In this document: piece after piece, positions 7,516 to 11,418 of the stretch
Layout: each line of letters opens with the position of its first letter
Numbering within the stretch: position 1 is the stretch's first letter
Origin: a virus
Direction: 5' to 3' (one strand)
Virus record (IMG/VR): IMGVR_UViG_3300021960_000335
Span: 1 to 30,314 of that record
DNA: 30,314 nt
The notes under the pieces: model-generated
What the model was told of the DNA's origin: nothing
Database searches by the model: none
What the model saw: only the letters and a program-made list of their open reading frames with translations
Program-made: the position numbers and the translations under genes

Positions 7516-7550
7516 AATAATAACGGTTAGCTAATGCAACCAAAAAACAC

Positions 7551-7556
7551 AGGAGG
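7551..7556 (+). promoter_or_regulatory. Strong Shine-Dalgarno of hsp20
   Basis: AGGAGG is followed by seven bases and the ATG at 7564. It decides the start: an upstream in-frame ATG at 7534 would place this site inside the coding region. Perfect sites like this are rare in the window, where most starts follow A/T-only leaders. Confidence 0.75.
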
Positions 7557-7563
7557 TTTAACT

Positions 7564-7977
7564 ATGACATTAATGAATGAACGAATGCTCAATGATTTAG
7601 ATTTAGTATTCAAAAATTTCTTCGATCAAAAACCTTATACTTCAGTTCGTGAAAGTAAAATAGGGTATCCAGTAGACATTATTAGAGATAAAGACCATGT
7701 TCGATTTGAAATTGCCGCTGTTGGCTTAGAAAAGTCGGATATTGAAATTACACTCGAAGGCGAAACATTACGAGTATCTCATAAACCAGATAGAGGATTA
7801 GAAACTGATAAAGTTTATATCCATCGTGGTATTGCTCGTAGATCTTTTGATTTAGCATGGAAAATATCAAATGACTTAGACCTAAGTTCGGCTTCTGCAT
7901 GCATGGATAAAGGGCTTCTTACAATTGAAATTCCATTTGCTGAATCAAGAGCACCAAAACAATTAAAGATCAAATAA
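7564..7977 (+). CDS. hsp20: Small heat shock protein, Hsp20/alpha-crystallin family
   Basis: The 137-aa protein holds an alpha-crystallin domain at about residues 34-128: YPVDIIRDKDHVRFEIAAVG (family 'P.vDi.e.dd.y.i.aelPG'), the turn LEKSDIEITLEGETLRVS, an IHRGIARRSFDLAW strand pair, and the closing G-x-L-x-I-x-x-P motif (GLLTIEIP). The N-terminal arm is short (MTLMNERMLNDLDLVFKNFF) and the C-terminal tail basic (KQLKIK), without the usual I-x-I oligomerisation motif except possibly L-K-I. Hsp20 proteins are ATP-independent holdases; copies are common in T4-like marine phages, where they are thought to help virion protein folding. Start chosen at 7564 by the AGGAGG site. It is an isolated gene flanked by the inverted repeat. 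Confidence 0.93.
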   Translation: MTLMNERMLNDLDLVFKNFFDQKPYTSVRESKIGYPVDIIRDKDHVRFEIAAVGLEKSDIEITLEGETLRVSHKPDRGLETDKVYIHRGIARRSFDLAWKISNDLDLSSASACMDKGLLTIEIPFAESRAPKQLKIK

Positions 7978-8250: not shown

Positions 8251-8463
8251 ATGAAAAACATTAAATTGGTAGAATCAGAAGCAAGTATTTTTGATGATAA
8301 TGCATTATCTTCAGTTAGATTAGAAAATGAAACGAGAGAACAATACAAAGCTCGTTTAAAAGAAAATAAAAATTTCATGAAGATGTATAAACGATTCGGC
8401 AGAGAACGTTTTAAACAATTTATGAATTTTATGAAACAAATGGGAGAACGGGGTGCAGAATAA
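8251..8463 (+). CDS. Hypothetical basic helical protein, 70 aa
   Basis: MKNIKLVESEASIFDDNALS is followed by a long basic, Met/Phe-rich helix (YKARLKENKNFMKMYKRFGRERF, key part NFMKMYKRFGRERFKQFMNF). The helix is amphipathic and could bind nucleic acid or a partner protein. No family recognised. The leader AGAGTTACAA resembles that of the HD gene (CAGTTACGA), and both follow the T-tract promoter motif. The 3' end overlaps the next gene by 11 bases. Confidence 0.65.
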   Translation: MKNIKLVESEASIFDDNALSSVRLENETREQYKARLKENKNFMKMYKRFGRERFKQFMNFMKQMGERGAE

Positions 8464-8686
8464 TACATTTATTCCAATAATAGCAAAAAATGGAGAAAAA
8501 CATTATGTAAATACATCCCATATTATTGATTTATATGATGTAATACCTAATAATAGTCCATCTTATTGTATAGTTTATTTAACACACGGAAAGTCATTTT
8601 CTACAGATGAATTAGCTGTTTCTATTATTGAAAAAATACTTTTATCAAATGGCCAAGCAAAAGATACCAACTTCAATTCAAAATAA
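8453..8686 (+). CDS. Hypothetical small protein, GTG start, 77 aa
   Basis: The frame opens with GTG at 8453 inside the end of the 70-aa gene, preceded by GGAG at about 8442, and no in-frame ATG is available near the start. The product (M/V-QNNTFIPIIAKNGEKHYVNT, then SHIIDLYDVIPNNSPSYCIV) looks like a small beta-rich protein of LytTR-like or single-sheet size with an alpha-helical C-terminus (DELAVSIIEKILLS). No function recognised. It overlaps the next gene by 38 bases. Confidence 0.6.
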   Translation: MQNNTFIPIIAKNGEKHYVNTSHIIDLYDVIPNNSPSYCIVYLTHGKSFSTDELAVSIIEKILLSNGQAKDTNFNSK

Positions 8687-9185
8687 ATTTAATCGCCAGC
8701 AATTCAAAGTTGGCGATTATGTTTATATTAATTTCTTAGGCGAAAAATTATACGGTTATGTTAAAAAGATTACAGAACGCTCTGGTACGTTTACGTACAT
8801 GGTTCAAACAAGTACTTATAGTTACCCGTGCGGCATTCAGATTGAAGAGTATGAAAGCGGTACCGCAGGAAATATACTCTTCAATGACACAAAGCGGATC
8901 GGGTCTGAAGAAATTAAACGAAGATTTGACGTTGGAACAATACCTAGAGTCATCACAAGGTCAGCAAGCCCTGAGCCTCGCCAGGACAAAGTTGAGCGAA
9001 CAGATGCTAATAACACTATCAGCAAAGTATCACCAAAACGACGAAAAACCAAGCAGCCCAGAACTGTGGATGTACAGCCTTGCGATAACGGAAATACTCA
9101 AAGTAATAGAACAAGAAGAAAAAGCTATTCAAAACTTGACGAAGCAATAGAAAAACAAAAGAATTTTCTTAGGAAATTTACATAA
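8649..9185 (+). CDS. Hypothetical protein with barrel-like N-domain and basic tail, 178 aa
   Basis: The N-terminal domain (FKVGDYVYINFLGEKLYGYV, ITERSGTFTYMVQTSTYSYPCGI, then SGTAGNILFNDTKRIGSEE) has the G-D-x-V-x-x-x-F-L-G-E pattern of a small SH3-like barrel. From about residue 95 the protein becomes low-complexity and very basic (SPKRRKTKQPRT, NRTRRKSYSK) before a short helix (KLDEAIEKQKNFLRKF). ATG 8649 is preferred to an upstream alternative at 8628 because the family-like domain begins MAKQKIPTS and 8649 is the first ATG. The basic tail is encoded across the same DNA as the nested frame at 8884-9150; the unusual composition may result from that overlap. Confidence 0.7.
   Translation: MAKQKIPTSIQNKFNRQQFKVGDYVYINFLGEKLYGYVKKITERSGTFTYMVQTSTYSYPCGIQIEEYESGTAGNILFNDTKRIGSEEIKRRFDVGTIPRVITRSASPEPRQDKVERTDANNTISKVSPKRRKTKQPRTVDVQPCDNGNTQSNRTRRKSYSKLDEAIEKQKNFLRKFT
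8884..9150 (+). CDS. Out-of-frame nested gene inside the 178-aa gene, 88 aa
   Basis: ATG at 8884 opens an 88-codon frame wholly inside 8649-9185 but in another phase. The product is an ordinary-looking helical protein (LTLEQYLESSQGQQALSLAR, LSEQMLITLSAKYHQ, ELWMYSLAITEILKVIEQEE), whereas the enclosing frame becomes basic low-complexity exactly here. The stretch is clearly richer in G and C than its neighbours and the nested frame uses many G/C-ending codons (CTG, AGC, GCC, ACG) that are scarce elsewhere, as expected if both frames are constrained. Upstream there is only a weak AGGAAA about 12 bases before the ATG. It may be that only one of the two frames is translated over this part. Confidence 0.5.
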   Translation: MTQSGSGLKKLNEDLTLEQYLESSQGQQALSLARTKLSEQMLITLSAKYHQNDEKPSSPELWMYSLAITEILKVIEQEEKAIQNLTKQ

Positions 9186-9214: not shown

Positions 9215-10237
9215 ATGGTTAGATATGGGTATTGTTGCATCAACATGGAGTTGGGCAAGCAAAAAATTCGTACGGGTCGTACGATGATTCAGCGAAAATT
9301 TGAAGAAGGTGGTTTGCAACTTGCTTCTGATATATCTTTAGAAAATGCAATGGATTTGCTTCCTATACTTCAGTGGAATGAAGAGAGAGGCATTCGATTG
9401 TTTCGAATTGGCTCTGAGATATTTCCTCGTTGGAATCATTACAAACTAGAAGATTTACCCGAAATTGATCTTATTGCAGACATACTTCGTGAAGCGGGCG
9501 ATTATGCTCGTGAACATGGACATCGACTTACTACACATCCAGGTCCGTTCAACATCTTAGGTTCTCCAGATCCGGTTGTAGTAGACAATACAATTGTTAG
9601 TCTCGAACGACATTCAGAGATGTTTGATTTGTTAGGTTATGATGATGCTACTCCTGATAACCTTATCAATATTCATATAGGTGCTACTTATGGCGATAAG
9701 CCTAATACGATTGCCAGATGGCTTCGTAATTTTGATCGCTTGTCAGATCGCCTTAAAGCTCGCTTAGTTGTAGAGAATGATGACAAGGCTTCAATGTATT
9801 CTGTACGAGATCTTTATGAAATGGTACATAAGCAGACAGGCACTCCGGTTACTTTTGATTATTGGCATCACAAATTCAATACCGGTGATTTGTCTGAAGA
9901 AGAAGCTTTCTATATGGCTCGAGAAACATACGAGGTTCATGGCGTTACCCAATGTACCCATTATTCTGAATCTCGTCGCAAAGAATACCAAAAGAAGTTA
10001 GAATTGGTTTGTGAACAACACAATATTCCATTTGACAAATTAGAAGAATGGCCGACATTTGAAAAGTTATACAAAGAATTCAGCAAGATCAAAGAACAGG
10101 CACATAGTGATTATATCTTAGAATTACCTAATACTTATGATGTTGATGATTTAGACATCGAGGTTGAAGCTAAAGCAAAAGAACAGTCATTGTTGCAAAT
10201 TGGGTTGTACGAAACACCACAGATTTTACAAGATTAA
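9215..10237 (+). CDS. uvsE: UV-damage endonuclease (UvdE/UvsE family)
   Basis: UvdE enzymes are metal-dependent TIM-barrel nucleases that nick DNA 5' of UV photoproducts and start alternative excision repair. The N-terminus VRYGYCCINM fits the family's 'iRlGYvcin' start. Expected metal and active-site residues can be placed: H108 (THPGPFN), H133 (ERHSEMF), H154 (NIHIGATYG), E187 (VVENDD), D215 and H218 (FDYWHH), H249 with E252 (THYSES). The segment RLFRIGSEIFPRWNHY is the family's 'yRiSS.ifP' region. Length is 340 aa against roughly 280-320 for bacterial enzymes; the extra length is an acidic C-terminal tail after about residue 295. A phage copy would protect genomes from sunlight damage, which suits a surface-water habitat. 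It stands as the first gene after a promoter-like motif. Confidence 0.93.
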   Translation: MVRYGYCCINMELGKQKIRTGRTMIQRKFEEGGLQLASDISLENAMDLLPILQWNEERGIRLFRIGSEIFPRWNHYKLEDLPEIDLIADILREAGDYAREHGHRLTTHPGPFNILGSPDPVVVDNTIVSLERHSEMFDLLGYDDATPDNLINIHIGATYGDKPNTIARWLRNFDRLSDRLKARLVVENDDKASMYSVRDLYEMVHKQTGTPVTFDYWHHKFNTGDLSEEEAFYMARETYEVHGVTQCTHYSESRRKEYQKKLELVCEQHNIPFDKLEEWPTFEKLYKEFSKIKEQAHSDYILELPNTYDVDDLDIEVEAKAKEQSLLQIGLYETPQILQD

Positions 10238-10258: not shown

Positions 10259-10438
10259 ATGGCACATTATCGTTTTAAAGCAAAAATTTCTGATGACATG
10301 GTAGACGCCATGGAAATTATTAAAAGTGCAGGAAAGTCTATTGCAGCAGGTCATGCAGACAAAAATGCAATACTAACAAATTTAACTGCTGCTTATAGAA
10401 AATTAGAATCAGCAAAGTATTATTTAGATAGAGAATAG
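10259..10438 (+). CDS. Hypothetical small helical protein, 59 aa
   Basis: ATG at 10259 (after AAAGGAAAGTT) opens a 59-codon frame ending at TAG 10436-10438. The product starts MAHYRFKAKISDDMVDAMEI and is helical and amphipathic, with KSIAAGHADKNAILTNL and a C-terminal KLESAKYYLDRE. No family recognised. The last base of its stop is the first base of the GTG that starts the membrane protein, so the two are probably translated together; a small partner of that protein is an attractive but unproven idea. Confidence 0.7.
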   Translation: MAHYRFKAKISDDMVDAMEIIKSAGKSIAAGHADKNAILTNLTAAYRKLESAKYYLDRE

Positions 10439-11418
10439 TGAAAAATGTTTTTCCATACATTGTATACGCTTCAGCATTTGCATTAGCCGGCAGTGCTGCC
10501 TATTACAGTGTATTCGGATTAAGCAAACTATTTTCAGCTCAGGCATTAGCTGTTGTCATAATGGCTGGTACTTTAGAAATATCTAAACTTATTACTGCAT
10601 CGTATCTTCATCGATATTGGAAACGCATAGGACTTTTATTAAAGACCTATCTTGTTACTGCAGTATTTGTGTTGATGTTTATTACATCTATAGGTATATA
10701 TGGATTTTTAGTATCAGCGTATCAAACAACAGCAGATCAGCTTACAGTATTAGACAAACAAGTAGATGTAATTGAGTTGAAGCGTGAAAGATTTCAAACG
10801 CAACTAGATGAATATTCTGCAGAAAAGAAACAATTAAGTGAATCAATATCAGAATTATCTAAAGGTTTATCTAACAATGTAATTCAATATCGTGATAAAG
10901 AAACTGGTGAAATTATAACAACAACATCGTCCTCTACTCGTAAAGTTTTAGAAAGACAACTTGATGATTCTAAACAACAAAGAAATACAGTAAATTTAAA
11001 AATAGAATCATTAACTGATTCAATTACTAGTTTGGATTTGCAAGTATTAGATATAGAATCAAATAACGATGTTGCTGCAGAATTAGGCCCGTTGCGATAT
11101 GTAGCTGAATTAACTAATCAACCAATGAATCAGGTTGTGAATTGGTTCATTCTTATTTTTATTTTTGTGTTTGATCCGTTAGCAGTAACCTTACTAATTG
11201 CAGCACAAATTGCAAATAAAAAAACAGATATGACCGAACAAGATGTAAAAGATGGATTGTATGATGATTGGGATTCAACTCTTAATGATGGTTTGGATGA
11301 CACGTTAGCAGCAGAAGAATTTGAAGTCGACGATATTGAATGGCTTCAAAAACAAGCTGAACGGGAAGAATTATATCAAGAAAAGAAAAAAACAAATAGA
11401 CCTAAAATTATATCATAA
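10438..11418 (+). CDS. Membrane protein with four helices and a long coiled coil, 326 aa
   Basis: Start is GTG at 10438, overlapping the previous TAG (TAGTG). Hydrophobic segments lie at about residues 5-30, 34-58, 68-94 and 233-258. Between the third and fourth is a roughly 110-residue charged helical region (about 98-208, with DKQVDVIELKRERFQTQLDE and SITSLDLQVLDIE) expected to form a coiled coil on one side of the membrane. The C-terminal tail (260-326) is strongly acidic then basic. The order of three helices, coiled coil and a last helix resembles DUF4407-type membrane proteins, a comparison from topology rather than motifs. Possible roles are membrane remodelling, superinfection exclusion or anchoring of phage factories; none is shown. 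Confidence 0.75.
   Translation: MKNVFPYIVYASAFALAGSAAYYSVFGLSKLFSAQALAVVIMAGTLEISKLITASYLHRYWKRIGLLLKTYLVTAVFVLMFITSIGIYGFLVSAYQTTADQLTVLDKQVDVIELKRERFQTQLDEYSAEKKQLSESISELSKGLSNNVIQYRDKETGEIITTTSSSTRKVLERQLDDSKQQRNTVNLKIESLTDSITSLDLQVLDIESNNDVAAELGPLRYVAELTNQPMNQVVNWFILIFIFVFDPLAVTLLIAAQIANKKTDMTEQDVKDGLYDDWDSTLNDGLDDTLAAEEFEVDDIEWLQKQAEREELYQEKKKTNRPKIIS

Follow-up and report, generated by a model that had tools for sequence, protein, structure and literature searches.

Two genuine protein-coding genes, one nested inside the other, very probably occupy positions 8649 to 9185 of the window, herein meaning the whole analyzed stretch of 30,314 nucleotides from the IMG/VR virus record IMGVR_UViG_3300021960_000335. 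Selective constraint is divided between the two genes along the DNA, and the start of the inner gene is most likely at position 8758. In the initial annotation, an 88-codon frame had been described within a gene for 178 aa, in a different phase. This frame, which begins with ATG, was confirmed to be in phase +1 relative to the enclosing gene, and it forms the C-terminal two-thirds of the inner gene (Table 1). In the proposed mechanism, the outer gene would encode a small β-barrel followed by a disordered linker and a C-terminal helix, and the inner gene would encode a helical protein, most likely translated from the AUG at 8758. Both proteins would be produced from one mRNA, by ordinary initiation at the outer AUG and by independent internal initiation at the inner AUG. 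More tentatively, the inner gene may have arisen by overprinting in the flexible linker of the outer gene and later acquired a stable fold.

Table 1. Features of the nested gene pair, with positions in the window and the evidence for each.
Feature	Position	Strand	Evidence
Outer (enclosing) gene, 178 aa	8649..9185	+	70 distinct full-length relatives
Parts of the outer protein: possibly SH3/Tudor-like β-barrel and helices, residues 8-95; disordered polar linker, residues 100-157; conserved C-terminal helix, residues 162-175			
Inner (nested) gene in the +1 frame, most likely 130 aa, entirely within the outer gene	8758..9150	+	Kept ATG, absence of +1 stops, GC step
88-codon frame of the initial annotation, C-terminal two-thirds of the inner gene; ATG not conserved	8884..9150	+	
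Inner core under strong purifying selection, three predicted helices (8932-8949, 8953-9030, 9055-9144)	8926..9147	+	Codon-position switch, dN/dS, AlphaFold2
Inner N-terminal extension, basic, amphipathic, stop-free	8758..8925	+	Residue-level constraint undetected in the inner frame; the outer barrel dominates
Outer disordered linker, residues 100-157, coextensive with the folded inner core	8946..9119	+	pLDDT <50; polarity
Outer C-terminal helix, family motif LDxAIxKQ(R/K)xFLxxF	9132..9173	+	Invariant L163, Q170, F173, and L174; post-overlap dN/dS

Layout and distribution of the gene pair

The GC content is 0.41-0.42 over positions 8758-9150, as compared with 0.30 in 8649-8757 and 0.32 in the window as a whole; the 267-nt stretch 8884-9150 reaches the 99th percentile for the window. 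Averaged over clusters of relatives, GC increases from 0.33 to 0.40 at the alignment column of 8758 and is 0.28 past the inner stop. Thus, the rise in GC reported earlier for the nested frame was confirmed, but it begins at 8758 and not, as had been stated, exactly at 8884.

Two small genes located upstream of the pair also overlap each other (8251-8463 and 8453-8686). The second of them has a GTG start inside the first, shares its last 38 nt with the beginning of the outer gene, and weakly matches phrog_7644 (E 0.0017). The pair is flanked by genes for an Hsp20-type small heat-shock protein (7534-7977) and a UvdE-type UV endonuclease (9215-10237). The gene at 10438-11418 encodes a membrane/coiled-coil protein with weak matches to holin and spanin-like families (phrog_1296, E 5e-5), and 94 relatives of this protein were found in viral contigs.

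Sequence searches against Pfam, PHROGs, and PDB revealed no consistent family for either the inner or the outer protein. With the window's own proteins as queries, no match was found in viral contigs or in 50,697 phage records; consensus family members gave no match in the phage collection either, and no copy was found in cellular genomes. Relatives were therefore collected through conserved neighbors, namely the UvdE-type UV endonuclease (9215), the protein at 10438, and a gp6-like baseplate protein (16939), yielding about 229 loci. By local tblastn, the outer protein was found in 91 of these loci at E ≤ 1e-5. Later scans brought the total to 82 distinct outer sequences, 70 of them full length and belonging to 24 clusters defined at a nucleotide distance of 0.3, with ancestry shared among clusters and sequence pairs.

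The carriers of the pair are a widespread group of uncultivated T4-like myoviruses, to which two orphan protein families are hereby added. By the baseplate protein, the nearest named genomes are those of Microcystis phage Mel-JY01 (54%) and Flavobacterium phage immuto (41%). Profile searches of nearly the entire genome of Mel-JY01, and of about 42 kb of the immuto genome surrounding its baseplate gene, found no copy of the pair. The UvdE proteins adjoining the pair in its relatives are 68-100% identical to that of the window, and the best named phage record is 35.5% identical.

Matches to the inner and outer proteins co-occur one to one, and the five outer matches lacking an inner one are fragments at contig ends. 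Homologues of the inner product alone, together with enclosing proteins ending near residue 90-95, had been proposed as objects of comparison in the initial annotation. Neither was found: every confirmed match obtained with two clade-specific inner alignments is on a contig already carrying the outer gene, and no relative has an enclosing protein that ends near those residues. No annotation of the inner gene was found in any of the searches made. Because long overlaps on the same strand are rejected by gene callers, genes of this kind escape annotation in the genomes of uncultivated phages, which form the bulk of viral databases.

Open frames, predicted folds, and selection

Each of the 70 distinct full-length relatives from the 24 clusters, down to about 25% protein identity, keeps both the outer and the +1 frame open. 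Among the first 59 sequences, the +1 frame is open for 106-171 codons in the same region and ends 23-68 nt before the outer stop. Across the 24 clusters, the inner core frame contains 0 stops vs 36 expected, and the outer frame, given the inner protein, contains 0 stops vs 46-103 expected. In the window alone, with the outer protein and the codon usage of the region taken as fixed, the probability of an open +1 frame over 8757-9146 is P = 0.0024. Stops in one of the two phases of homologues, regarded beforehand as an argument against nesting, thus did not occur. In 24 of 24 clusters, the outer linker is more polar and less hydrophobic than expected if it were a by-product of the inner frame.

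Structures were predicted with AlphaFold2 on alignments of 59 sequences. The inner product is predicted to form three helices with a mean pLDDT of 84 (below 50 for the first 11 residues and about 74-97 in the core). The outer protein is predicted as a confident small β-barrel with helices up to residue 95, a region of pLDDT below 50 at residues 100-157, and a helix at residues 162-175. The same bases therefore appear to encode a folded inner core and a disordered outer linker, and the earlier description of the enclosing protein as low-complexity at the overlap holds for residues 100-157, together with predicted disorder. For the outer protein, the only relative found by Foldseek in the structural library is A0A6J5NTH1 (34% identity, E 5.5e-13); the best PDB folds are tudor/chromo domains, at a non-significant E of 0.04. 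The inner hairpin gave no significant Foldseek match (best E 0.23). An unrelated long frame, L201:1-1179, contains a sequence similar to the motif of the outer C-terminal helix (LDKAIDKQKELLNGTIKK, E 0.0047), possibly as a shared short interaction motif or by chance.

Codon positions vary differently inside and outside the overlap. In 18 ungapped marine sequences, the third positions of the outer frame are the most variable ones outside the overlap (0.27-0.33) and the least variable ones inside it (0.05-0.20), where the most variable position is the outer first, that is, the inner third. The switch lies 5 codons before the inner core, is reversed at codon 63 after it, and is about one codon-window wide. 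The estuarine and freshwater clades have a like pattern with more noise. An RNA element as the source of this conservation is disfavored by the triplet periodicity, and Rfam gave no match in the window.

For the analysis of selection, dN/dS was calculated from four-class change counts by our own simplified version of the OLGenie idea. Inner dN/dS (NN/NS) in six clades was 0.58 (0.45-0.73), 0.59 (0.39-0.89), 0.54 (0.42-0.71), 0.62 (0.46-0.84), 0.39 (0.23-0.59), and 0.48 (0.27-0.81), and in a seventh clade it was 0.18; within-clade nucleotide distances reach 0.3, and saturation can bias these ratios. The ratio and its confidence interval are below 1 in the marine, estuarine, D, E, F, H, and I clades, which are all the clades with enough data. 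The empty +2 control frame gave 1.17-1.89 in the first six clades. The proposal of an out-of-frame nested gene is thereby borne out, as the inner frame is conserved and under purifying selection (NN/NS <1). The N-terminal extension of the inner protein has no residue-level conservation.

Outer residues in the linker have NN/SN of 0.9-2.2, i.e., no purifying selection at the residue level. Past the overlap, dN/dS of the outer residues is 0.02-0.47, and in every clade the outer C-terminal helix is conserved, its third codon positions varying in the normal way. Along the DNA, constraint as read from the alignments thus falls first on the outer barrel, next on the inner core, and last on the outer C-terminal helix. 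Purifying selection on one frame only had been listed in the initial annotation as evidence against overprinting. At the residue level this does describe the overlap, with selection on the inner core and none on the outer linker; nevertheless, the outer frame is open, polar, and conserved on both sides.

These data bear on the possibility that the inner frame alone has a function in the overlap, in which case the outer protein would end near residue 95 and its tail would be unselected read-through. The absence of residue-level selection in the linker and its disorder in the AlphaFold2 model agree with such a tail. Nonetheless, the conserved C-terminal helix can be reached only in frame 0, the outer frame is free of stops where dozens are expected, and no relative terminates early, all of which makes a read-through tail highly improbable. 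Since outer stops are absent, the linker is polar, and residues after the overlap are conserved, the outer tail is probably translated and kept soluble, with its exact sequence free.

A quite improbable alternative is a frameshift product. Here, a +1 (or -2) shift near residue 85-95 of the outer protein would join the barrel to the helical core, and this product would exist beside the unshifted barrel and tail. Dual products of frameshifting are known in phage tail genes. The sharp onset of inner constraint just past the end of the outer barrel and the lack of a universal start codon near the core are also in its favor. Against it, no common slippery motif is visible at the boundary in the 70 aligned sequences. 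Moreover, the absence of +1 stops, the kept ATG, and the GC step all begin 50-70 codons upstream, and none of these is predicted by frameshifting. With its constraint cleanly divided, the nested pair, represented by 70 diverged sequences in 24 clusters, offers a test bed for the origin of overlapping genes, nucleotide sharing, and fold evolution.

Start, age, and possible role of the inner gene

The most likely start of the inner gene is the ATG at 8758, giving a protein of 130 aa. This start is favored because the ATG is kept, +1 stops are depleted between it and the core, and GC steps up at the same column. The ATG is formed by an outer Tyr or His codon, TAT or CAT, standing before the G of a conserved Val codon. 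These YV/HV codons of the outer gene always read NAT-G (44 of 44 sequences, 20 clusters), although codons ending in T make up about 62% elsewhere in that domain; the product of background frequencies over clusters is 6e-5. Four estuarine relatives with a V to I replacement retain an ATG two codons earlier. In 18 of 18 marine sequences, an ATG is located 41 codons before the core, directly after the last +1 stop.

Stop depletion was counted from a fixed alignment column, equivalent to 8758, to the core. In this region, 11 +1 stops were found vs 45.7 expected. All of them come from five divergent clusters, and in four of these clusters there are candidate starts further downstream. In 19 of the 24 clusters, +1 stops are absent from the 8758 column onward. 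The stretch before the column contains 34 +1 stops vs 22 expected; counts for the +2 control agree with expectation. No start codon fits all relatives, and four divergent clusters must begin later. The lineage of L039 and L040 (also L273 and L274) has an outer protein of 215 aa and a +1 stop 32 codons before the core, the core position being set by hand in L039 as well as in L050; the inner start there can only be a late ATG, giving 86 aa. In this lineage the inner core alone seems sufficient. The basic and amphipathic character of the N-terminal extension in the inner protein is possibly only a by-product of the barrel.

The start at 8884 given in the initial annotation was not upheld, as its ATG is missing in most close relatives and the 8758 ATG or an equivalent is kept. 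A late start near the core, at 8884 in the window and at other codons in other lineages, would yield a protein of 80-90 aa and make the upstream openness a side effect. That the core alone folds and bears selection fits such a start, as does the restriction of the L039/L040 lineage to its late ATG. We nonetheless consider a late start unlikely: besides the poor conservation of the 8884 ATG, some relatives (L028 and L187) lack any ATG, GTG, or TTG over the 25 or so codons that precede the core, and the upstream stop depletion and kept ATG would stay unexplained.

Gene starts in the window have no obvious Shine-Dalgarno consensus by eye and are preceded by A/T-rich sequence, which suggests a host with Shine-Dalgarno-independent initiation. 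Because no such consensus stands out at these starts, initiation at an internal AUG lacking one is plausible for the inner gene at 8758.

Codons of both frames are atypical for the window, as had been observed before: synonymous log-odds in the overlap are -0.11 for the outer and -0.49 for the inner frame vs 0.34 for other window genes. Overall, the corresponding values are 0.047 and -0.132, with 0.276 for ordinary genes, and the inner score exceeds the outer one in only 3 of 51 cases. The outer frame is also further above its own by-product baseline than the inner one. Less genome-like codon usage is taken as a mark of the newer frame, and a newer nested frame is usual for +1 internal overlaps (PMC8227390). 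Because outer codon usage is closer to that of the genome, this criterion weakly suggests that the inner gene is the newer frame. The inner and outer frames have identical distributions among the relatives, which favor neither order. The initial annotation had favored the opposite order, with the enclosing tail as the newer product. This order was not supported, in view of the lack of any relative ending at residue 90-95, the conservation of the C-terminal helix in every relative, and the more genome-like outer codons.

In an account to which we attach middling confidence, the inner gene was born by overprinting in the flexible linker of a tailed-phage gene that already existed; it then came to fold stably into helices and was fixed across a whole T4-like radiation, with its start codon preserved inside the conserved barrel-coding region. 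As for function, a rather doubtful working guess is that the outer protein acts as a small adaptor, touching different partners with its barrel and its C-terminal helix, and that the inner protein, produced along with it, serves separately as an accessory or host-takeover factor.

Comparison with known systems

A T4-type clamp-binding C-terminus was considered for the outer protein. The C-termini of gp33, gp55, and gp43, which bind the T4 sliding clamp, are hydrophobic and acidic (PMC2988020). The QxxFLxxF end of the outer protein is hydrophobic but basic, and this candidate was rejected. A0A6J5NTH1, an uncharacterized protein from an uncultured Caudovirales phage, is a relative of the outer protein; for the inner protein, no counterpart was found in that structural library.

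Functional segregation has been described for the tat/rev and rev/env overlaps of HIV-1 (PMC9119678). As in these overlaps, nucleotides of the present pair appear mostly constrained by one protein, and a structured part lies over a disordered part. Unlike them, the present pair belongs to a DNA phage, was sampled over far wider divergence, and is known from sequence alone. Overprinted +1 internal genes of viruses (PMC8227390) resemble the present nested frame, which is less genome-like in codons and more hydrophobic than the enclosing tail. In contrast to those genes, the present nested product is predicted to fold well, and its distribution is no narrower than that of the enclosing gene.

In phage lambda, Rz contains Rz1 as an embedded gene in the +1 frame, and sensitive regions of one gene lie over silent regions of the other (PMC5295617). 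This likeness, together with the weak holin/spanin matches of the neighboring gene at 10438, raises the possibility of an embedded two-component spanin pair, the chance of which is vanishingly small. No transmembrane segment was found in either protein of the window (best 19-residue hydropathy of 0.16 in the outer and 0.79 in the inner), cysteine is missing from the inner protein of the window and of many relatives, which leaves no lipobox, and the outer protein begins with a β-barrel rather than a membrane helix and coiled coil. Spanin identity is thus refuted on its defining features, the N-terminal transmembrane helix of the i-spanin and the lipobox cysteine of the o-spanin. The present pair also differs from Rz/Rz1 in having no signal peptide, in its unrelated sequences and folds, and in its location outside a recognized lysis cassette. 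Shared with Rz/Rz1 are full embedding of the smaller gene, the +1 frame, a tailed-phage genome, and segregated constraint (PMC5295617).
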